Shown piece by piece: positions 285 to 9,504 of a DNA stretch of 9,504 bases (the first letter of the stretch is position 1; the number at the start of each line of letters is the position of its first letter). Both the position numbers and the translations under genes were made by a program. The DNA comes from an uncultured Fidelibacterota bacterium. Its GTDB lineage: Bacteria; Marinisomatota; Marinisomatia; Marinisomatales; UBA1611. The stretch lies in NCBI GenBank assembly GCA_913041325.1, contig CAJWHU010000051.1, positions 1-9,504 on the forward strand, read 5' to 3'. The notes beneath the pieces were generated by a model. That model was not told where the DNA came from, did no database searches, and worked only from the letters and a program-made list of their open reading frames with translations.

Positions 285-1166
285 ATGGAACAAACTACAA
301 CATTTGAAGAGCAGAAAAAAGAATCTAGCAGGATCTATTCCCTGTTTTATTCCTTTTTTTTGATTCCCTTTATGATAGCGATCTTTGGAGCCGTTTTCTT
401 TCTTCTCTTTAGATTTATCACATACGAAACTACTGATGCGTCAGAACTACTCAATCAGGTTAAAATAGGCTCAGCGACCAAACGCTGGCAGTCTGCTTAC
501 GAGCTCTCAAAGGTACTCAACGACCCTGATGCAGTGCCCTTTGATTTATCTTTCAAAAACCAAATGGTATCCGCATATGATCACGCTATAAATGATGATC
601 CGTTGGTACGAGCCTACCTGGCCATTGCGATGGGCGCAACGGGGGATCAGTATTACGGAGATAAACTCGTTCTCGGACTAAATGACGAATCAAGAGAGTC
701 CCGGCTTGCTGCCATTCAGGCCGTAGGTATGGTAAAAGAGCAAAGTGCGATTAGTAGGCTTTCTGAAATAATTAAATCGTCCGACTTTCAAGATGAGCGA
801 TTAGCCGCAACTATGTCACTCGGTTTTATTGGTAATAGTAAAACGATACCCCTACTAAAAAGTTTGCTTGACGACGACGAACCTAATATTAGATGGGACG
901 CTGCGATCGGCTTGGCAAAAATGGGTGAAGATTCATCAATCCCAACCATTCAAAATCTAATGGATCGAAATTACCTCTCAACCTTTCCTGAGCTTGACCA
1001 AAATGAAGTAACCAAAGTGATACTAACTGCGATCGAGACGACGACAATCATAGTTGACCAGCGCTTTGAACCACTACTTGAGACACTTGCCAGCTCTGAT
1101 GAGAATTTGAAAGTTAGAAACGCAGCAATTAAAACACTTAAGTTTGCTTACAACAAAAATACATAA
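285..1166 (+). CDS. Membrane-anchored HEAT-repeat protein of the bc-complex operon
   Basis: The 293-residue product has a short N-terminus with KK and R before one strong membrane helix (about residues 18-45), then an all-helical domain. HEAT-like repeats are readable at about 103-131, 133-164, 167-196 and 197-226, each with the 'R..A...L' core and Gly/Asp turn; examples are ESRLAAIQAVGMV, ERLAATMSLGFIG and IRWDAAIGLAKMG. A further repeat lies at 272-288 (VRNAAIKTLKF). HEAT repeats form solenoids that bind proteins; there is no catalytic motif. The positive-inside rule weakly favours N-in topology with the solenoid in the periplasm, where it could hold the Rieske head or the octaheme cytochrome. 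The gene stops 5 bases before the Rieske start, so co-transcription is nearly certain. The start has no good Shine-Dalgarno, but the first Met gives a complete anchor. A role as accessory or assembly subunit is inferred from position only. Confidence 0.85.
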   Translation: MEQTTTFEEQKKESSRIYSLFYSFFLIPFMIAIFGAVFFLLFRFITYETTDASELLNQVKIGSATKRWQSAYELSKVLNDPDAVPFDLSFKNQMVSAYDHAINDDPLVRAYLAIAMGATGDQYYGDKLVLGLNDESRESRLAAIQAVGMVKEQSAISRLSEIIKSSDFQDERLAATMSLGFIGNSKTIPLLKSLLDDDEPNIRWDAAIGLAKMGEDSSIPTIQNLMDRNYLSTFPELDQNEVTKVILTAIETTTIIVDQRFEPLLETLASSDENLKVRNAAIKTLKFAYNKNT

Positions 1167-1171
1167 AAATT

Positions 1172-1726
1172 ATGTCAAAAGAAAAAACAGTACCTAATGC
1201 AGCAGTTGGATCCTCAGCTGAAAACGCCTTTAAAAGACCTGAGAAAAGCAGAAGAAATTTTCTAGGTTGGCTATCGCTAGGCTGGGTTGCGTACCTTGGA
1301 GTTACCGGTGGATTTTTCACTATGATCGTCCGATTTTTGTTTCCGAATGTACTTTTTGAACCACCGCAGTCGTTCAAAATTGGCTACCCTGACGATTTTT
1401 CTAAGAATTCTGTAGACATCAAGTTTAAAAAACAGTTTAACGCCTGGATAGTCAGAGATGAGGAGTCAATATTTGCCCTTTCCACTGTTTGCACGCATCT
1501 TGGTTGTACTCCAAACTGGCTTCCTGTAGAATCAAAGTTTAAATGTCCTTGTCATGGTAGCGGATTTAGAATGACAGGCATACATTTTGAGGGTCCCGCT
1601 CCTAGACCTCTGGAAAGATTTAAAATAGGCCTTGCAAACGACGGTCAAATACTTGTAGACAAGACAAAAAGTTTTAAGTGGGAAAAGGGTGAATGGGAAA
1701 ATCCTGAATCCTATTTGAAAGTGTAA
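1172..1726 (+). CDS. petC: Rieske 2Fe-2S subunit of a cytochrome bc/b6f-type quinol oxidase
   Basis: This 184-residue protein carries both Rieske boxes: CTHLGC (107-112; cluster ligands C107 and H109) and CPCHGSGF (125-132; ligands C125 and H128). C112 and C127 form the expected disulfide pair, and the GPAPRPL 'Pro loop' follows at 141-147. The N-terminus has a twin-arginine signature SRRNFLGW (26-33) directly before one membrane helix (about 33-57), which fits Tat export with an uncleaved anchor. The 2Fe-2S cluster would accept one electron from quinol at the outer site of cytochrome b and pass it on, here presumably to the octaheme cytochrome. Length and motifs are typical of the family. 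It sits between the HEAT gene (5-base gap) and the cytochrome b gene (29-base gap). No Shine-Dalgarno is visible before the ATG. qcrA is an equivalent name. Confidence 0.97.
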   Translation: MSKEKTVPNAAVGSSAENAFKRPEKSRRNFLGWLSLGWVAYLGVTGGFFTMIVRFLFPNVLFEPPQSFKIGYPDDFSKNSVDIKFKKQFNAWIVRDEESIFALSTVCTHLGCTPNWLPVESKFKCPCHGSGFRMTGIHFEGPAPRPLERFKIGLANDGQILVDKTKSFKWEKGEWENPESYLKV

Positions 1727-1755: not shown

Positions 1756-2550
1756 ATGGCAACCAATAAAAACAAAAAGTCCCTTTTAGACACTCTAGGT
1801 GAGTCTCAAATATGGAAATCAATAATTCGTTCTGGAATTCCACGAACACGACGGCAAAGAATGCATGCTGTTCTGGGAAGCGTTTTTTTACATCTTCATC
1901 CTGCAAGGCTACCTAAGCATGCGGTAAAGTTGGGATACACCTGGTGTATGGGTGGACTATCTTTTTTTCTATTTGTCAATCTGACCATTACCGGCATTCT
2001 GCTAATGTTTTATTACCGTCCGACAGTTGAATATGCTTACACGGATATTATTGATCTTGCTGAGCAAGTCCCGCTCGGTATTATGAGGGAGCTGCACCGA
2101 TGGGCTGCTCACTCCATGGTTCTTGTTGTGTGGTTACACATGCTGAGAGTGTTCATGACTGGGTCGTACAAGCCACCCCGTGAATTCAACTGGGGCGTCG
2201 GTGTGCTGCTAATGACTCTTACAATGTTCTTGTCTTTCACTGGATATTTGTTGCCTTGGGATCAGCTTGCAATCTGGGCCGTAACTGTTGGTTCAAACAT
2301 GGCGAGGGCTCACCCTTTTATAGGCCATGAGGGTCCTGGGGCCAGTTTACTCGCAATAGGAGACATTAATTTAGTACATATCGGGTCAGATGTTCGTTTT
2401 GCATTAATAGGAGGCAGGTTCGTCGGCGAGGCTACACTTTTACGATTTTACGTCATACACTGTATTGCTGTGCCGTTTATAATGATGATTTTTATGGCCG
2501 TTCACTTTTGGCGCATCAGAAAAGATGGTGGAATCTCTGGACCTCTATAA
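1756..2550 (+). CDS. petB: Cytochrome b6-type (N-terminal half) cytochrome b subunit
   Basis: This 264-residue integral membrane protein has the four helices A-D of cytochrome b (about 62-87, 111-136, 147-170, 229-252). Heme ligands are H114 and H128 in helix B (within LHRWAAHS and WLHMLR) and H235 and H250 in helix D. The 15-residue step in helix D is the b6-type spacing; bc1 has 14. PWDQ (167-170) and the final RKDGGISGPL match cytochrome b6 closely, so the protein is split from subunit IV at the b6f position. C64, in YTWCMGGL, falls where Cys35 of b6 binds heme ci (cn). Helices C and D are joined by a segment roughly 20 residues longer than in b6. It binds two b hemes and oxidises quinol, probably menaquinol, in the cytoplasmic membrane. 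qcrB is an alternative name. Confidence 0.96.
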   Translation: MATNKNKKSLLDTLGESQIWKSIIRSGIPRTRRQRMHAVLGSVFLHLHPARLPKHAVKLGYTWCMGGLSFFLFVNLTITGILLMFYYRPTVEYAYTDIIDLAEQVPLGIMRELHRWAAHSMVLVVWLHMLRVFMTGSYKPPREFNWGVGVLLMTLTMFLSFTGYLLPWDQLAIWAVTVGSNMARAHPFIGHEGPGASLLAIGDINLVHIGSDVRFALIGGRFVGEATLLRFYVIHCIAVPFIMMIFMAVHFWRIRKDGGISGPL

Positions 2551-2561: not shown

Positions 2562-3680
2562 ATGTTAGACGCATTCAAAAGCACAGTAGACTACCTATCA
2601 GCACCGACCATCAGTTTCTCAATATTGACTGTTGTTACGCCTATTTTATTTCCTCCAACAGACTGGTTTGACAAAATAAATCGCAAACTTGGTTTTTATC
2701 TACTCTGGACAAAAACTGGTTTAGTTGCTGCAATGGCTGCCATTACTTTCTTCTTCATAGTTGGGTATATGGACACGAACTTTAATGTCATTTTAACGAA
2801 GGCAGACAATTTTCCAATTGTACTAATGGTATATTCCATCTATTATTTTACTTGGCTAGCTATGCACAAAGCTTACGTGAATGACGAAAGACTTGAGAAT
2901 GGTCTAAAGCCTAGTGAATACAATGACCCTGATGATAAAGTACTAGTCTGGCCGGATTTAGTATACATAGAGTTTATCGCACTAATTCTTTTCACTGTAT
3001 TTTTAGTTATTTGGTCAATTTTAGTAGCTGCTCCCCTTGAAGAGCCTGCTAACCCTGCAGCAACTCCAAACCCTTCAAAAGCTCCCTGGTACTTCCTTGG
3101 CCTTCAAGAGATGTTAGTCTATTATGATCCCTGGATTGCAGGTATAGTTTTACCAATATTTTGCGTAGTAGGACTAATGGCTATCCCTTACATGGACATC
3201 AATAAAAAAGGAGATGGTTATTACTCCTTTAAAGAACGAAGAGTAGGTATTTTTATATTCATGTATGGATGGATTGTACTGTGGTTATTTCTCATAGTTT
3301 TAGGAACGTTTTTCAGAGGTCCAAACTGGAATTTCTACGGACCATTTGAATATTGGGACTCACACAAGATTGTGGCTCTAAACAGTGTCAGCCTATCAGA
3401 ATATTTCTGGGTTAAGCTACTTGGCAAGGGCCTACCAGAAAATATCTTGCTCAGAGAATGGTTAGGATTTCTAACTGTTGGAGGGTATCTGTTCGTCCTA
3501 CCTTTAGTGCTAGCCAAAACCGTTTTAAAAGATATGTTCAAAGCATATGGTCCAACTAGGTTTGTTGCACTGATGATATTTGGTCTCGTGATGCTATCTC
3601 TTCCTCTAAAAATGTATCTGAGGTGGATTGCTAATCTGAGTTATTTCATTTCAATTCCGGAATACTTTTTTAACATATAG
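2562..3680 (+). CDS. petD: Enlarged subunit IV (C-terminal half of cytochrome b)
   Basis: From the ATG at 2562 the product has 372 residues, over twice the roughly 160 of b6f subunit IV. The core matches subunit IV: VWPDLVYIEF (129-138), then EEPANPAATP (160-169), then the quinol-site motif as APWY (174-177), then helices at about 191-209 and 228-250. The usual PEWY glutamate is proline (P175). About 125 residues with two predicted membrane helices (about 50-69 and 84-102) precede the core. A C-terminal extension holds a loop with RGPNWNFYGPFEYWD (252-266) and two or more helices (about 299-321 and 331-350), giving about seven helices. It completes the quinol oxidation site. It follows the b6-type gene after 11 bases and precedes the cytochrome gene by 14. 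Enlarged non-PEWY subunit IV forms are known in several non-proteobacterial phyla. An upstream in-frame ATG at 2508 is less likely. Confidence 0.93.
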   Translation: MLDAFKSTVDYLSAPTISFSILTVVTPILFPPTDWFDKINRKLGFYLLWTKTGLVAAMAAITFFFIVGYMDTNFNVILTKADNFPIVLMVYSIYYFTWLAMHKAYVNDERLENGLKPSEYNDPDDKVLVWPDLVYIEFIALILFTVFLVIWSILVAAPLEEPANPAATPNPSKAPWYFLGLQEMLVYYDPWIAGIVLPIFCVVGLMAIPYMDINKKGDGYYSFKERRVGIFIFMYGWIVLWLFLIVLGTFFRGPNWNFYGPFEYWDSHKIVALNSVSLSEYFWVKLLGKGLPENILLREWLGFLTVGGYLFVLPLVLAKTVLKDMFKAYGPTRFVALMIFGLVMLSLPLKMYLRWIANLSYFISIPEYFFNI

Positions 3681-3694
3681 GTAAAGTAAGTTAA

Positions 3695-6600
3695 ATGTTT
3701 ACGAATGACGAAAGATATTGGGACATCAACCTACTAAATAAGTGGTTCGCAATATCGTCCATCATTTTCCTTGCTGTGACTGTATGGATATTCGTTGACG
3801 ATAATGATGATGAATTCAAAGATTATCAACGTGAATTCAGAAAAATGCAAATTCAAGTTGCCCAAGAGAAGTTGGAACAACAGGCTGAAGAAGTTTCGGT
3901 AGAAAAACAAGCATATGAAGATGCTCTCTCTGCCGCAAGGTCTGAATTTGACAGTCGCAGCGAAGAACTTGGAACTTTAATGAGTCAACTTGGTGAGCTA
4001 AAAGACAAGCACTATGACCAGAACATGAAGTTTCAAAGTCACAAAGCTAATGTTGAAGCTCTAAAATATCTTGTTGAATCTGAGAACGCTCACGCCAACC
4101 ATGGGCCCTCTAGCCGGGACGAGTACAATGCAGCATTAGAAAAACTGGATTTATTAAGACTCGCAAGAGAAGATACAGAAATTGAAATAGGTTTACTTGA
4201 AAGTCAGATAAAAGATATTAGATCCATTGTTAAGAAAAAACAGGATGACCTTGACAAGTATACCAAACAGTATACACTAACCGAAAATAAACTTGGTAAA
4301 CTTGATAGAAGTAGAATGTCAATGGCAAACAAGTTAGGGGATATTGTACGAGATTTACCCATCCTCGATTTCCTTGATCCATATTACAAAGTCAATCAGA
4401 TTGTTGTTGCAGATGTGAAATACGACGTCAACTTTGCTGCTGTACCAGTTGTTGATAGATGTACTAGTTGTCATCTGGGAATTGATAATCCAGATTTTTC
4501 TGATGCTCCGCAGCCTTATACTACACATCCTAACCTAGATCTTTATGTAACCTCAAATTCACCTCATCCCATGAACAATTTTGGCTGTACAAGTTGCCAT
4601 GGTGGCAGGAGCAGGGGAACTTCTTTTGTTTCGTCATCTCACACGCCCAATTCATCCGAGGATAAGGAGAGGTGGAAAGAAGAACACGATTGGAAAGTTA
4701 ACCACCACTGGCTCACGCCAATGTTACCCACTAAGTACACTGAAGCCAGCTGTTTTAAGTGTCATAACAATACAAGTGATCTTGCGGGTGGAGAAAAAAT
4801 TAACCTCGGACTAACCTTAATAGATCAGGCAGGATGTAACGGATGCCACCACAACGAGGACTGGCCTACTCTTGCAAAATCTGGACCTAATCTGAAAAGA
4901 ATTAATGAAAAATTAACTGAAGACTGGGTATCTAAATGGGTTAAGAATCCTAGACATTTTCGATATAATACCAGGATGCCATCAATTTTTGAACAACCAA
5001 ACCAGGAAAGTGAAGAGGTTACCGCCTACAATAATGTAGAGATCGCAGGTATCACTGAATATTTATTCGATGGTAAAGAAAAGAATATCGGTAGTAATGA
5101 TGAACAGTTTATAGGTGATGCCATAAGCGGAGAAAAATTATTTAACGCAGTTGGATGCATGGGATGTCATGTATCTGAAAAAAATCCAGAGAATGCTCCA
5201 CACATAAATAATTACGACAATTTAACGAAGGTGCATGGTCCAAATCTTGTTGGAATTGGTTCTAAGGTTTCCGCTGAATGGCTATATGAATGGCTTATGG
5301 ATCCGCAAGCCTATATGCCTGACACGAAAATGCCCAACTTGAGACTAGAACCACAACAGGCAAAAGATATCGCTGCCTATCTCCTCGAAGATAAGAATGA
5401 ATCATTTGATAATCTTCCTGCCCATGACTTCGATCTTGCTGTGCTAGATGAACTAACCACAAACTGGCTAAAAAAGTCAAATCCAGAAAAATTTGCTGTT
5501 GCCAAAGCATCTAAGATGAGTCAAAAGGAAAAACTTAATTTTGTTGGCGAAAAAAGTATACGCCACTACGGATGTTTTGGGTGTCATAATATTGACGGTT
5601 TTGACGATGCAAAACCCATTGGTGTAGAGATAACAGAAGAAGGCTCAAAGCCAGTTGGTAAATTTGACTTCGGTCTCTTCCATGATATCGACCACACAGT
5701 ACCTGCATGGATTGAGAATAAACTAAGGACTCCTAGAATATACGATCGAGGTAAAGAAAGTGAGCACCTTGACTTACTTAAAATGCCTAATTTCTATTTT
5801 TCCGAAGAAGAGATAGAAGCAATCACCGCTGCAGTTCTAGGATTTAATGCAAACAAAGTTAGTGACAACCTGAAAGCACATAATAAGGCACCAGACATCT
5901 ACAAAGAAGGGCATAGATTGGTAAAGCAATATAATTGTCAAGGTTGCCATCAGATAGAAAACAGAGGTGGCCAGCTAGTAGAGCACATTGGACCACCAGA
6001 ATACGGACCACCCAACCTTAATTCCGAAGGTAGAAAGGCTAACCCAGATTGGTTACTGTCTTTTTTCAATAACCCTTCAATTATTCGCCCCAACCTGCAA
6101 GTTAAAATGCCGAGCTTTCATCAAATCAGTGATGAGGAATGGGATGCAATAATTGCATATTTTCAGCATATAGACGATGAGAACATTAATTACAGAGGAG
6201 AGCATGATTTTAACATAAACAGTACTGAATTTATAGCAGGTGCTAAACTACATGAGATAGGCCAGTGTAATAGCTGCCACTTTTATGGAAAAGAGTTTCC
6301 AACAGGTGATGCACCAACCTGGGCAGCAAATTTAGCCATGACCAAAGAACGCCTAAATCCTGAATGGGTAACAGAATGGCTTAAAAATCCACAAAGAATA
6401 ATGCCGGGAACCAAAATGCCTGCACCTTATGTTCCCGACACCACAGTCCTGTATAGCGATGGTGCCAAAGAAACTTGGGGCTCCGAACTAATTGATTTAA
6501 AAGGCGATACAGTTGCAATGCTTGATGGACTAAGAGATTATCTGTGGAATATTGAAGGTGACAAAAACATTGATGACTTAATTAAGGCATACTTTGCAGA

Positions 6601-6712
6601 AAACGGCTATGACTTTGATAGCGAGGATTCGGATGATTATGAGGATGAAGATGACGACTGGGGGGATGAGGATGATGAAGGCGATGACTGGGGTGATGAC
6701 GAGGACTGGTAG
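3695..6712 (+). CDS. Octaheme membrane-anchored cytochrome c with coiled-coil stalk
   Basis: This 1005-residue product has one N-terminal membrane helix (about 17-34, N-in, acidic residues just outside), so the rest is periplasmic. Residues 36-213 are charged and heptad-rich with a break near NHGPSS (135-140), suggesting two long helices folded as a hairpin. Eight CXXCH sites follow, with first Cys at 256, 298, 353, 381, 488, 627, 748 and 858. The first three form a His-rich module; the last five are repeated cytochrome c domains, each ending in a Met-Pro ligand (M428, M546, M697, M805, M908). The tail (973-1005) has 23 acidic residues and ends in DEDW. As the last operon gene with no cytochrome c1 or f nearby, it probably takes electrons from the Rieske cluster and passes them to an oxidase or soluble carrier. 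Function is inferred; heme count is read directly. No Shine-Dalgarno is evident; a strong terminator follows. Confidence 0.95.
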   Translation: MFTNDERYWDINLLNKWFAISSIIFLAVTVWIFVDDNDDEFKDYQREFRKMQIQVAQEKLEQQAEEVSVEKQAYEDALSAARSEFDSRSEELGTLMSQLGELKDKHYDQNMKFQSHKANVEALKYLVESENAHANHGPSSRDEYNAALEKLDLLRLAREDTEIEIGLLESQIKDIRSIVKKKQDDLDKYTKQYTLTENKLGKLDRSRMSMANKLGDIVRDLPILDFLDPYYKVNQIVVADVKYDVNFAAVPVVDRCTSCHLGIDNPDFSDAPQPYTTHPNLDLYVTSNSPHPMNNFGCTSCHGGRSRGTSFVSSSHTPNSSEDKERWKEEHDWKVNHHWLTPMLPTKYTEASCFKCHNNTSDLAGGEKINLGLTLIDQAGCNGCHHNEDWPTLAKSGPNLKRINEKLTEDWVSKWVKNPRHFRYNTRMPSIFEQPNQESEEVTAYNNVEIAGITEYLFDGKEKNIGSNDEQFIGDAISGEKLFNAVGCMGCHVSEKNPENAPHINNYDNLTKVHGPNLVGIGSKVSAEWLYEWLMDPQAYMPDTKMPNLRLEPQQAKDIAAYLLEDKNESFDNLPAHDFDLAVLDELTTNWLKKSNPEKFAVAKASKMSQKEKLNFVGEKSIRHYGCFGCHNIDGFDDAKPIGVEITEEGSKPVGKFDFGLFHDIDHTVPAWIENKLRTPRIYDRGKESEHLDLLKMPNFYFSEEEIEAITAAVLGFNANKVSDNLKAHNKAPDIYKEGHRLVKQYNCQGCHQIENRGGQLVEHIGPPEYGPPNLNSEGRKANPDWLLSFFNNPSIIRPNLQVKMPSFHQISDEEWDAIIAYFQHIDDENINYRGEHDFNINSTEFIAGAKLHEIGQCNSCHFYGKEFPTGDAPTWAANLAMTKERLNPEWVTEWLKNPQRIMPGTKMPAPYVPDTTVLYSDGAKETWGSELIDLKGDTVAMLDGLRDYLWNIEGDKNIDDLIKAYFAENGYDFDSEDSDDYEDEDDDWGDEDDEGDDWGDDEDW
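4793..6547 (+). repeat. Five tandem, diverged monoheme cytochrome c domains
   Basis: Within the octaheme cytochrome, five units share one order: CXXCH, then W-x3-(W/K/F)-hydrophobic-x2-P, then a (K/R)MP ligand motif, then a helix ending near A-(Y/A)-hydrophobic. Approximate residue spans are 367-457, 474-563, 612-716, 733-824 and 845-951. Examples of the middle element are WVSKWVKNP, WLYEWLMDP, WIENKLRTP, WLLSFFNNP and WVTEWLKNP. The matching is at protein level; the DNA is too diverged to be a recent duplication. Unit 3 has about 20 extra residues between heme site and ligand. Confidence 0.8.
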
Positions 6713-6738
6713 ATAGCTAAAATTACTTATAAATAATA

Positions 6739-6764
6739 AAAGCCCCAGTTTATCTGGGGTTTTT
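6739..6764. terminator. Bidirectional Rho-independent terminator between convergent genes
   Basis: CCCCAG (6743-6748) pairs with CTGGGG (6754-6759) around the loop TTTAT. Flanking A bases on the left and T bases on the right (T tract from 6760) extend the stem and provide a U tract in either direction. It lies 30 bases past the octaheme cytochrome stop and ends the bc-complex operon. On the other strand it follows the SCO-fusion gene, whose stop codon (complement of 6764-6766) is inside the T tract. Confidence 0.9.
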
Positions 6765-7600
6765 TATTTTATCACCAATTTGATTGCATTTTCAGCATGG
6801 TTTACGTTCCAATCATCCCCAGGCCACGATGCCAACAGCTTACGATTTGGATCAATCAAAACTGATCTCATAGTGTGTCCAATTTTTTCTTCCTCAACTC
6901 CCCAAAAATTGGCACCAGTTTGCCTAACAATTGAGTATATATCCTCAGTTCTTCCTGTACTAGATAGGATTATAACATTTTTGTTTTGCTCTATTATTGA
7001 TGAATAGTTTCTCTTCAGTACAGACGGAGTATCGTGGATATAATCAAAACTTATCAATAAAAATTCAATCAAATTACTTTCGGAAAAATTATTTGCAAGA
7101 ACATTATTTTTCATAATCACGGCGGGGCACATATTTGGCATAGGACAGCGGGTAAAAATGTAGGATATAAAGCGATATTTACCATCGCTCTGAGATAAAT
7201 TATAATTGATACTGTCAATTGTTAAAAGTGTAACATCATCTATCACATCACCAATTGATTTCTCACTGTACTCATCATCAAAAAAGTCGTCATCTTCAGG
7301 CATATAGCCCCTACCCACAACACTGAATTTATGTGCAAATGGAAGTGAATCATTCCAAACAAACTCAAAAAGTACGCTATCTCCAACCTTAACTTGATTA
7401 AGCTCACCTCCAGGAACAAAAAATGGCATTACCATTGGAGGCATCAAATCTGCAATGGTATCGTGGGCTATCACCACTTTATTAGTATTCAGATCTAGGG
7501 ATCTTATTGTACCCCTAACAGCATATCTATTGCTTGGATTATCACAGTTGATAAGAAACAATATAATAGTAGCATTTAAAAGTAAAATTTTGCAGCGCAT
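6764..7600 (-). CDS. CusF-like/SCO fusion lipoprotein, copper chaperone
   Basis: The 278-residue product starts with a lipoprotein signal whose lipobox LINC places the lipidated Cys at 19, supporting the start at 7600. Residues 27-95 resemble the CusF-like copper domain: H46, then MPPMVMPF (53-60). Aligned to CusF, H46, M56 and M58 match the copper ligands and M53 replaces the tryptophan. An acidic linker (102-113, EDDDFFDDEYSE) leads to a SCO1/SenC thioredoxin-like domain (about 115-276). This has FTRCPMPNMCP (C152 and C158, a CX5C variant of the usual CX3C site) and H242 in GHTMRSVLIDP as third copper ligand. SCO proteins mature the CuA centre of cytochrome c oxidase or act as thiol reductases. 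CusF-SCO fusions are known. The protein should be membrane-tethered outside the cytoplasm. Its gene begins just past a terminator-like hairpin with no nearby Shine-Dalgarno. Confidence 0.9.
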   Translation of the reverse strand: MRCKILLLNATIILFLINCDNPSNRYAVRGTIRSLDLNTNKVVIAHDTIADLMPPMVMPFFVPGGELNQVKVGDSVLFEFVWNDSLPFAHKFSVVGRGYMPEDDDFFDDEYSEKSIGDVIDDVTLLTIDSINYNLSQSDGKYRFISYIFTRCPMPNMCPAVIMKNNVLANNFSESNLIEFLLISFDYIHDTPSVLKRNYSSIIEQNKNVIILSSTGRTEDIYSIVRQTGANFWGVEEEKIGHTMRSVLIDPNRKLLASWPGDDWNVNHAENAIKLVIK

Positions 7601-7652: not shown

Positions 7653-8363
7653 TTATTTTTTTTTGGGCCTACTGAAAACAAAATCTTTTGTAGTCTCACC
7701 ACTGCCTATAGTTACGCTTGCTTTGAGAGTCCGTTTACCAAATTTTTCTTGCCAACAGATAACGTCATAAGTACCTGCTGGAATACCTTCAATTGAAAAA
7801 TTTCCATTTTTATCGGTTACTGCGAAATAGGGATGATCTGAAACAAGAACCCATGATTTCATCCAGGGATGAACATCGCATTTAATGTAAAAGGGATCTG
7901 GTTCAGATTTCTTGAATGTTGCTTTCTTTTCCTTTACAACTTTGGGCATAGCAAAATTGAACTCTTTATTAACTTTTGGCATAGAATGTATGTTATGCAG
8001 GGTTGCGTCACTGTTTTTTATTAATAGTTCTTGCCCGGCCACCATCCCAAATACATGAGGGGTGTAGATGCATCCCTGCTGATCAAGCACTGCTGGTTCT
8101 GATGGTACGCCTCCGGAATACGGAACATTCTTGAGGTACACTAGTGCCTCTTCCATTGATCCATCTTCACTCATTTTAAAATTTTCGCTAAGTACTGGCT
8201 TGGAGTGAGATGAGCCACAAACGGGATCAGCGTCCATTCTTAAACGCTTCTTTTTTGGTGGTTTACCATCGTACTTGACATTTCCTTTCAGAGTCCCTGC
8301 AATAGTACTACTAATAGAGAATGATAGAATTAGGACAAACTTTGTTATAATTTTATAATTCAT
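7653..8363 (-). CDS. Secreted cupredoxin-like protein with carboxypeptidase-regulatory-like C-terminus
   Basis: The 236-residue product has a Sec signal (hydrophobic 8-20, cleavage near SSTIAG at 18-23). A beta-rich region contains DPVCGSSH (46-53) and QQGCIYTPHV (95-104), then NSDATLHNIHS (117-127) and KCDVHPWMKS (161-170). H123 or H126 with C162, H165 and M168 follow the blue-copper ligand pattern (His...Cys-x2-His-x2-Met). Residues about 178-231 (HPYFAVTDKNGNFSIEGIPAGTYDV) match a carboxypeptidase regulatory-like beta-sandwich. Such proteins often sit beside respiratory complexes and are annotated as cupredoxin-like or methylamine-utilisation-like; their role is not settled. It may shuttle electrons or bind copper in the periplasm. 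AAAGGA lies close upstream of the start. It is upstream of the SCO fusion on the same strand, separated by a hairpin. Copper binding is inferred, not shown. Confidence 0.85.
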   Translation of the reverse strand: MNYKIITKFVLILSFSISSTIAGTLKGNVKYDGKPPKKKRLRMDADPVCGSSHSKPVLSENFKMSEDGSMEEALVYLKNVPYSGGVPSEPAVLDQQGCIYTPHVFGMVAGQELLIKNSDATLHNIHSMPKVNKEFNFAMPKVVKEKKATFKKSEPDPFYIKCDVHPWMKSWVLVSDHPYFAVTDKNGNFSIEGIPAGTYDVICWQEKFGKRTLKASVTIGSGETTKDFVFSRPKKK

Positions 8364-8460: not shown

Positions 8461-8982
8461 ATGCTATATACTAGTAAATTTACCCAGTTACTGTATTCAA
8501 ATTATATGTATTTATTCATGATAGCCTGCTACGTATTCATGGCCGTGAGCGCGATCAATCTCACTCTCACAGGCATTAGTGGATATTGGGATTACAAAAT
8601 ACTGGGAGCAAGTCACACGAGATTCGCCCTTTTCACAGTTTTAATTTTTACAATCACTGAAACACTTGTTATGTATTTTTTTATCACCACTGGAAAAGCT
8701 ATCAAAAAAGCGGTAGAAGATGGCTTAGGTAATCATGCGCTCTGGGAAAGAGAGAGAAAATTAAAAATGGTTTTGTTTCCACAGCTAATGCTGACAATAT
8801 TATTAGTTGGTGGCTGGTTTATACACATTGGTGCAATAGAAAATAACATATCACCAATGTGGCTGCATTATCTCTTATTCATTGTTGCTTATATACACCA
8901 TTTCTGGAGCCTTAAAATAAAAAACAATGCATTTAAAAGTCAGATTGCCATCATATCAGAACTTGAACCTGAGGTTAGCTGA
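8461..8982 (+). CDS. Four-helix integral membrane protein of unknown function
   Basis: The 173-residue product has four predicted membrane helices (about 15-39, 54-79, 104-125, 132-152). Histidines lie at or near helix ends: H52, H92, H122, H136 and the pair H146-H147. Charged loops such as KAIKKAVEDG (79-88) and WERERKLK (95-102) separate helices 2 and 3. Paired histidines in a four-helix bundle recall membrane b-type cytochromes or quinone-linked anchors, but no family signature is clear and I do not recognise it. The start at 8461 has no Shine-Dalgarno; internal Met codons at 16 and 20 would shorten only the segment before helix 1. The stop overlaps the next gene's ATG (ATGA), so the two are translationally coupled. 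It diverges from the copper genes and precedes a ferredoxin, so an electron-transfer role is plausible by context only. Confidence 0.8.
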   Translation: MLYTSKFTQLLYSNYMYLFMIACYVFMAVSAINLTLTGISGYWDYKILGASHTRFALFTVLIFTITETLVMYFFITTGKAIKKAVEDGLGNHALWERERKLKMVLFPQLMLTILLVGGWFIHIGAIENNISPMWLHYLLFIVAYIHHFWSLKIKNNAFKSQIAIISELEPEVS

Positions 8983-9206: not shown

Positions 9207-9504
9207 ATGGCACCAACATATAACTATTTTAAAGGAATACCTGAACTGCCAGATTATGCAAGGCAAAAGACGAAAAAGCCGAAGCTAATCGCTGTTGTTG
9301 ACGAAGATAATTGCACTGGCTGTCAAGCTTGTGTACCATTCTGCCCGGTCGATTGTATAGAGCCGGTAGCAAGTGACAAGTACGAATTCCCCGTGATCCC
9401 TCCTGTACAAGTTAGATTTAATGAATGTACTGGTTGTCAAGTGTGTGCGAGAGTTTGTACTAGAATGACCTGGGACGCTATTAGAATGTTGGGAACTGAC
9501 AAAT
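9207..9504 (+). CDS. 2x[4Fe-4S] ferredoxin-like protein (5' part, runs off window)
   Basis: The frame is open from ATG 9207 to the window end, giving 99 residues without a stop. Two cluster motifs are visible: C36-x2-C39-x2-C42-x3-C46-P and C74-x2-C77-x2-C80-x3-C84, the second followed by Thr rather than the usual Pro. In such folds the last Cys of each motif ligates the other cluster. An additional C50 follows the first motif (CPVDCIEP). An N-terminal extension of about 30 residues (PTYNYFKGIPELPDYARQ, 3-20) precedes the first motif, longer than in simple clostridial ferredoxins. There is no signal peptide, so it is cytoplasmic. AAAGGA (9190-9195) is a suitable Shine-Dalgarno at about 11 bases; AAGGA at 9200-9204 is too close. 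It could be a free ferredoxin or the electron-transfer subunit of an oxidoreductase encoded downstream. Confidence 0.88.
   Translation, partial: MAPTYNYFKGIPELPDYARQKTKKPKLIAVVDEDNCTGCQACVPFCPVDCIEPVASDKYEFPVIPPVQVRFNECTGCQVCARVCTRMTWDAIRMLGTDK

Follow-up and report, generated by a model that had tools for sequence, protein, structure and literature searches.

The window analysed here, a 9,504-nucleotide stretch of contig CAJWHU010000051.1 from an uncultured member of the Fidelibacterota (the current NCBI phylum name for Marinimicrobia, or SAR406), carries on its plus strand an operon that encodes, in order, a HEAT-repeat protein, a Rieske protein, a b6-type cytochrome b, a subunit IV and an octaheme cytochrome c (Table 1). 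A first-pass annotation had proposed that the octaheme cytochrome takes the place of cytochrome c1 or f in a bc-complex operon, and its direct readings were confirmed: the open reading frame (ORF) encodes 1005 residues with eight CXXCH sites, its start at 3695 follows the end of the subunit IV gene at 3680 after a gap of 14 bases, and none of the nine window ORFs scanned with Pfam and NCBIfam matches a cytochrome c1, a cytochrome f or a small cytochrome c. The window therefore combines a Rieske protein, a split b6-type cytochrome b and a subunit IV with an octaheme protein as the only c-type subunit encoded. It is very likely that this operon encodes the complex III of a Fidelibacterota bacterium, a b6f-like assembly in which a membrane-anchored octaheme cytochrome stands in for the single-heme cytochrome f or c1, of the little-studied kind known from Nitrospina, Kuenenia and Methylomirabilis, and which feeds an oxidase.

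The octaheme protein begins with a membrane anchor, followed by a long helical hairpin; its heme-bearing part has three hemes with probable bis-His ligation and then five His/Met domains that resemble class I cytochromes c, and its tail is acidic. All 16 of its cysteines sit in the eight CXXCH sites, of which 0.009 would be expected from composition. Modelling of the fold from a 30-sequence alignment gave a poor predicted local distance difference test score (pLDDT) of 58.5, and a good one of 82.7 from 140 sequences; the latter model was used. Within it the hairpin has pLDDT values of 76-94 over residues 71-180, and of 45-65 at either end. Structure comparison of the model was informative mainly for residues 69-191 and 469-568, the heme 5 domain (residues 469-568) being similar to SoxX and cytochrome c folds. 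Foldseek returned nothing for the model at E <= 0.001, and coiled coils fill its list. Searched by sequence against the PDB, the whole protein matched one cytochrome c and one oxidase subunit 2, both weakly. Searching the PDB with an octaheme profile found cytochrome c, cbb3 subunit II and pieces of alternative complex III subunit A, with no octaheme relative among the matches listed (the best 60 of 75). Viral contigs were also searched for relatives of the octaheme protein, and none was found there.

Table 1. Genes, heme sites and other features of the window, with positions counted from its first nucleotide
Feature	Position	Strand	Evidence or remark
Membrane-anchored HEAT-repeat protein, first operon gene	285..1166	+	PF13646, E 2.8e-24; hydrophobic segment 24-42
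Rieske [2Fe-2S] protein	1172..1726	+	PF00355
b6-type cytochrome b	1756..2550	+	PF00033; ExtP-like match below cut-off
Long subunit IV, 372 residues from ATG	2562..3680	+	PF00032; seven hydrophobic segments
Octaheme cytochrome c, 1005 residues	3695..6712	+	ATG start; Pfam cytochrome c domains
N-terminal membrane anchor, residues 17-35	3743..3799	+	Hydropathy; model helix 11-36
Helical hairpin, residues 41-203	3815..4303	+	Model helices 41-87, 89-132, 141-203
Heme 1, CTSCH, residue 256	4460..4474	+	
Heme 2, CTSCH, residue 298	4586..4600	+	
Heme 3, CFKCH, residue 353	4751..4765	+	
Heme 4, CNGCH, residue 381	4835..4849	+	Candidate ligand Met428
Heme 5, CMGCH, residue 488	5156..5170	+	Candidate ligand Met546
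Heme 6, CFGCH, residue 627	5573..5587	+	Candidate ligand Met697
Heme 7, CQGCH, residue 748	5936..5950	+	Candidate ligand Met805
Heme 8, CNSCH, residue 858	6266..6280	+	Candidate ligand Met908
Terminator-like hairpin after the octaheme gene	6738..6764	+	11-pair stem, then T-rich tail
CusF-SCO1 fusion	6764..7600	-	PF11604, PF02630; SCO gene in 35/36 loci
Cupredoxin-like protein with carboxypeptidase-regulatory-like domain	7653..8363	-	PF14686 above cut-off
Small membrane protein	8461..8982	+	No Pfam or NCBIfam match; kept in 32/33 loci
2[4Fe-4S] ferredoxin, truncated at the end of the window	9207..9503	+	PF12838; kept in 28/30 loci

The heme complement of this protein is strongly conserved. Homologues were taken from three lists of the best 120 matches (out of 1008, 2790 and 1837 hits), which together gave 265 sequences including one (P0002) identical to the window protein; two short ones, P0098 (590 residues, five sites) and P0244 (705 residues, labelled partial), were excluded. 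All 263 homologues longer than 900 residues have exactly eight CXXCH sites, and 260 of them share the spacing 42-55-28 for hemes 1-4. Besides the CXXCH sites, exactly three His and five Met are invariant across the 140 aligned homologues, which fits ligation of three hemes by two histidines and of five by His/Met. This 3 + 5 pattern of candidate ligands gives a direct prediction for redox work. The rule is restricted to the long type of octaheme protein seen in the window, since the shorter octaheme proteins of the second operon type described below have no residues aligned to His316 and Met908. In L019, L035, L037 and L038/L086 the count of CXXCH sites is low; heme loss was considered as the cause and rejected, because between 12 and 88 residues of these sequences are undetermined. 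The octaheme copies in L039 and L040 are broken, with about 130 undetermined residues.

Conservation extends to the gene order around the octaheme gene. Among 46 loci of relatives, counting those with enough flank, the octaheme gene is preceded by subunit IV in 42 of 42, and by cytochrome b, the Rieske gene and the HEAT gene in 40 of 40 each. The same holds for the Rieske, cytochrome b and subunit IV genes, wherever the contig reaches, in 15 divergent loci whose octaheme proteins are 37-48% identical to that of the window. The source names of the octaheme family come from several phyla; 36 of the 46 loci are labelled Marinimicrobia or Neomarinimicrobiota, nine simply 'bacterium' and one Alphaproteobacteria, and the four homologues with organism names in the first of the three lists comprise three Marinimicrobia and one Rhodobacteraceae. 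The locus labelled Alphaproteobacteria (L019) and the protein labelled Rhodobacteraceae (P0097) bear a Fidelibacterota-type operon or protein, and probably come from mislabelled bins.

A survey of 220 Fidelibacterota genomes, in which the genomes of related loci stand in for the window's own, is in agreement with this picture. The octaheme profile matches 99 of the 220 genomes and PF00033 matches 127. Cytochrome c1 (PF02167) was detected in none of the 220, the Caulobacter control being positive, and cytochrome f (PF01333) was over the cut-off in none, with a positive Synechococcus control. Hits to PF01333 below the cut-off in 56 of the 220 genomes were rejected as cytochromes f, as those listed lie in frames of 693-1530 residues, most of them near 1400; they may be RNA polymerase subunits. 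The PF01333 control was also positive, unexpectedly, in Thermotoga maritima. Co-occurrence was counted for the 100 strongest octaheme segments (96 genomes) against 91 listed b6-type rows, a count that dropped weaker octaheme rows and unsplit or other-type cytochrome b rows. A listed b6 gene lies within 5 kb upstream on the same strand for 88 of the 100 segments. Closer inspection of the other 12 located a b6 gene in four (L104-L107), a cytochrome b end at the contig edge in one (L108) and a subunit IV that runs off the contig in two (L109 and L089), the remaining five being contig-end pieces or broken genes. Shorter proteins with partial octaheme similarity (for example in L102 and L103) are encoded apart from bc genes and were excluded from the homologue counts. 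Within the phylum, octaheme homologues follow a split cytochrome b wherever the contig allows, these five edge or broken pieces aside. The synteny and the survey bear out the proposal that the octaheme protein takes the place of cytochrome c1 or f, and a separate c1 or f gene, which the first-pass annotation had named as a possible Rieske partner outside the window, was not found in the 220 genomes. The octaheme cytochrome is the only c1 or f substitute detected beside the b6-type genes of this abundant ocean phylum.

The remaining core subunits likewise combine b6f-like and distinctive features. The cytochrome b aligns with cytochrome b6 (1vf5_A) over residues 60-264, and the Cys of its YTWCMGG motif falls over a b6 Cys that we take to be the one that binds heme ci/cN in b6f. 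Subunit IV, for which a TTG-start ORF begins at 2508, matches b6f subunit 4 over residues 114-243. The split cytochrome b with its presumed heme ci Cys is thus a likeness to b6f, whereas the window differs from b6f in having no cytochrome f, a subunit IV of 372 rather than 160 residues, and KAPWY at the position of PEWY; KAPWYF occurs in 93 of 101 fetched copies of subunit IV, many of them duplicates. No claim is made for a subunit IV glutamate near heme ci, which was considered, as the alignment is ambiguous at that point. The Rieske protein has its best PDB match in 9rk3 (Kuenenia Kustd1480), at 162.8 bits, followed by 82.1 bits to 9rk4 (Kuste4569) and 62.4 bits to the best b6f entry. Its motif CPCHGSGF is found in 56 of 69 copies and is shared with Kustd1480, so that a high midpoint potential of the window Rieske protein is plausible. 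The HEAT-repeat protein could serve as an additional subunit or help in assembly.

Octaheme complexes of this kind are already in print, so the first-pass statement that one to a few hemes serve as Rieske acceptor in known bc and b6f complexes overlooks part of the literature. A bc-like operon that comprises an Fe-S subunit, a split cytochrome b and, as its sole c subunit, an 'atypical octaheme cytochrome c' was described in Nitrospina gracilis in 2013, and the same operon structure with a similar octaheme protein was noted in Kuenenia and Methylomirabilis oxyfera (PMC3578206). In two Kuenenia complexes described in 2025, a hexa- or octaheme cytochrome c replaces cytochrome f, long helices of Kustd1485 wrap halfway round the modelled complex, and the midpoint potential of Kustd1480 is given as 335 mV (PMC12954380). 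Rieske donation to multiheme cytochromes is also discussed in a Caldithrix paper, which cites Dibrova 2013 for early forms (PMC5317091). Kustd1480-1485, as far as that account goes, shares with the window a Rieske protein, a four-helix b6-type cytochrome b and a long subunit IV, and in both the position of cytochrome f is taken by a large multiheme cytochrome c that has a transmembrane helix as well as long helices (PMC12954380). The likeness to the Nitrospina operon, compared by description, lies in the Rieske gene beside a split cytochrome b and in the octaheme protein as the only c-type subunit; neither a HEAT protein nor an oxidase neighbourhood is mentioned in the parts of the Nitrospina account on which we draw (PMC3578206). 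The anammox operon includes an NAD(P) oxidoreductase subunit, for which a role in making NAD(P)H has been proposed (PMC12954380), whereas the window operon has no such subunit and, unlike the anammox operon, begins with a HEAT protein and mostly adjoins cytochrome oxidase genes. In the literature searched, which was seen in part and did not extend to subscription papers, we found no published description of an octaheme complex III in Marinimicrobia or Fidelibacterota; a figure legend in PMC5688066 names a generic 'cytochrome bc1 complex'. In the literature consulted, octaheme Rieske/b complexes are described from a few nitrogen-cycle bacteria; the new elements here are the pattern of heme ligands, the distribution of the protein, its association with an aerobic oxidase and the existence of two operon types.

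The second operon type was found in four survey genomes (L093-L096, in G074, G177, G084 and G175). By Pfam, all four loci begin with an NAD(P) oxidoreductase-like gene with Fe-S domains, as in the anammox complexes and unlike the window type, followed by Rieske and b6 genes and a shorter subunit IV (234-237 residues). An octaheme protein of 655-703 residues and then a small cytochrome c follow in L093-L095; the contig of L096 ends before both. These octaheme proteins are homologous to that of the window over hemes 1-8 (27-28% identity, E 2e-60 to 2e-63) and differ from it in having no helical hairpin. A CoxII-like ORF with two CXXCH sites adjoins the operon in L093.

Homology of the c subunit to that of a described complex was shown through a close relative of such a complex, L097, which is of the Kustd1480 type, rather than with Kustd1485 or the Nitrospina protein. 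The L097 Rieske protein scores 175.9 bits against Kustd1480, and its c subunit aligns with residues 18-687 of the window protein, from the anchor to beyond heme 6, the contig breaking off there (27%, E 3e-71). At a further locus, L101, the Rieske protein scores 166.9 bits against Kuste4569 and a truncated multiheme subunit aligns with residues 224-571 (32%, E 1e-57). These alignments, together with the Rieske scores, place the window complex with the Kuenenia-type complexes by sequence, beyond gene order. NAD(P) oxidoreductase domains were identified by Pfam in L093-L097 and L101. L097 and L101 are contigs C56 and C39 of G108, a metagenome-assembled genome binned as Fidelibacterota, and are probably anammox contamination, or else reflect transfer.

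Downstream of the operon in most related loci lie the genes of a CuA-type oxidase. Among the closer loci with enough flank, CoxI is present in 23 of 24 and CoxII in 14 of 17, and a gene that we take to be CoxIII in 21 of 22; this label, like those of CoxIV, CtaA and CtaB, was given mainly by gene position. Pfam confirms COX1 and COX2 in L003 and L017, and 28 of 29 CoxII copies have the CuA motif, with no CXXCH within the aligned stretches; the oxidase is probably of the aa3 type. CoxI is also nearby in nine divergent loci (L081-L086, L089, L090 and L092, L086 and L038 being one and the same genome region). The octaheme gene thus mostly has an aerobic oxidase as neighbour and no NAD(P) reductase subunit in its operon, a setting that separates a role as electron wire from the formation of NAD(P)H proposed for the anammox complexes.

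Given the oxidase genes downstream in 23 of 24 closer loci, we infer a path from quinol through the Rieske protein and the octaheme protein to the oxidase. Quinol would be oxidised at the Qo site of cytochrome b and subunit IV, with one electron passing through the b hemes and probably heme ci. The other electron would pass from the Rieske cluster to a heme of the octaheme protein, then along its hemes, and on to the CuA-type oxidase, directly or through the cupredoxin whose gene lies between the operon and the oxidase. The long helical hairpin may embrace the complex. Several observations weigh against this reading. CoxI is missing from one of the 24 closer loci (L023), and from two of the divergent set (L079 and L087) in which 7-10 kb of flank is available; none is seen in L078 and L080 either, but their flanks are short, as are those of L088 and L091. 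At least one small (<200 residues) class I cytochrome c is present in 7 of 10 genomes, so that a soluble carrier may work too. Furthermore, structural or biochemical work on an octaheme bc complex was not found in the literature consulted beyond Rieske crystals and AlphaFold3 models.

The octaheme protein may be a complex III subunit as we propose, with a mobile carrier, either the cupredoxin or a soluble cytochrome c, shuttling electrons to the oxidase in the manner of ordinary chains, and we regard this as possible, if somewhat short of probable. A candidate is encoded in the window itself: besides PF14686, the cupredoxin-like protein gives PF13620 and amicyanin-like (29 bits) matches, both below cut-off, its gene is present in 31 of 33 loci, and the CxxHxxM copper motif is kept in 68 of 68 fetched copies, so that, judged from its sequence, an electron carrier is a possible function. 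The small class I cytochromes c noted above would be another. However, none of these was detected in three of the ten genomes (G003, G006 and G010), and the hydrophobic N-terminus of the cupredoxin-like protein may be either an anchor or a signal peptide. Genes for a related cupredoxin (31-34% identity) also lie by the NAD-type operons, and others by loci without an oxidase, which indicates that the cupredoxin is not specific to the oxidase.

The converse proposal is that the octaheme protein is a built-in wire that unites complex III and the oxidase of the Fidelibacterota, carrying electrons from Rieske to CuA without a mobile cytochrome c, as the standard aerobic complex III of this abundant dark-ocean phylum and with relatives in several other phyla. 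An actinobacterial precedent is the bcc-aa3 supercomplex, in which complex III is joined to the oxidase without a soluble cytochrome c and QcrC is a diheme protein. The window protein differs from QcrC in its eight hemes as against two, and scores 27 bits with NF050122, for which the cut-off is 200. The oxidase link for such a supercomplex is one of gene neighbourhood only, and we put the proposal forward tentatively, as rather more apt to fail than to hold. The direct contact with an oxidase suggested by the first-pass annotation is favoured by the gene order, but does not extend to all clades, while its further suggestions of charge storage and of transfer to an extracellular acceptor found no support.

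An enzymatic role is improbable. The octaheme protein could act on a small substrate, such as nitrite or another nitrogen or sulphur compound, and in anammox bacteria an extra HAO-like octaheme protein, that of Kuste4569-4574, has been proposed to link quinol oxidation with the reduction of nitrite (PMC12954380). The Pfam result for the window protein contains no HAO family, and five of its hemes have the class I pattern. Octaheme enzymes of the HAO or OTR type have a catalytic heme without a distal protein ligand, whereas the window protein has eight invariant distal ligand candidates for its eight hemes and so, on this putative assignment, no obvious open site; identity as an HAO-type enzyme was considered and set aside as improbable. 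Least probable of all, to the point of being very hard to credit, is a part in an outward conduit to extracellular acceptors, which the matches of cytochrome b and subunit IV to selenite/tellurite ext models (ExtP 265 of 290 bits and ExtQ 65 of 150, both below cut-off) and a weak MtrC-domain match might suggest, but against which stand the N-terminal membrane anchor, the oxidase genes of the closer loci and, at the loci examined, the lack of any other listed ORF with more than two CXXCH sites (porins were not searched for).

The hairpin after the octaheme gene is one of three terminator-like sites in 1.1 kb, where 0.5 would be expected. Beyond it come two genes convergent with the operon, for the CusF-SCO1 fusion and the cupredoxin-like protein; the fusion probably delivers copper to the oxidase. 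SCO proteins usually have a CxxxC pattern; the SCO-like protein here reads CPMPNMC, and CxxxC occurs in just 6 of 69 fetched copies. A specific kinship of the ferredoxin at the window end with the NAD(P) oxidoreductase was rejected, the two having only the general 2[4Fe-4S] pattern in common, and it is highly improbable that this ferredoxin is a cytoplasmic counterpart of the Fe-S domain in the anammox NAD(P) oxidoreductase subunit. Elsewhere in the phylum, the three inspected genomes with an unsplit cytochrome b (L098-L100) have it beside proteins with 8-12 CXXCH sites, with a Rieske gene in L098 and L099, and in L099 the genes for the Rieske protein, cytochrome b and a 535-residue octaheme protein stand in a row.

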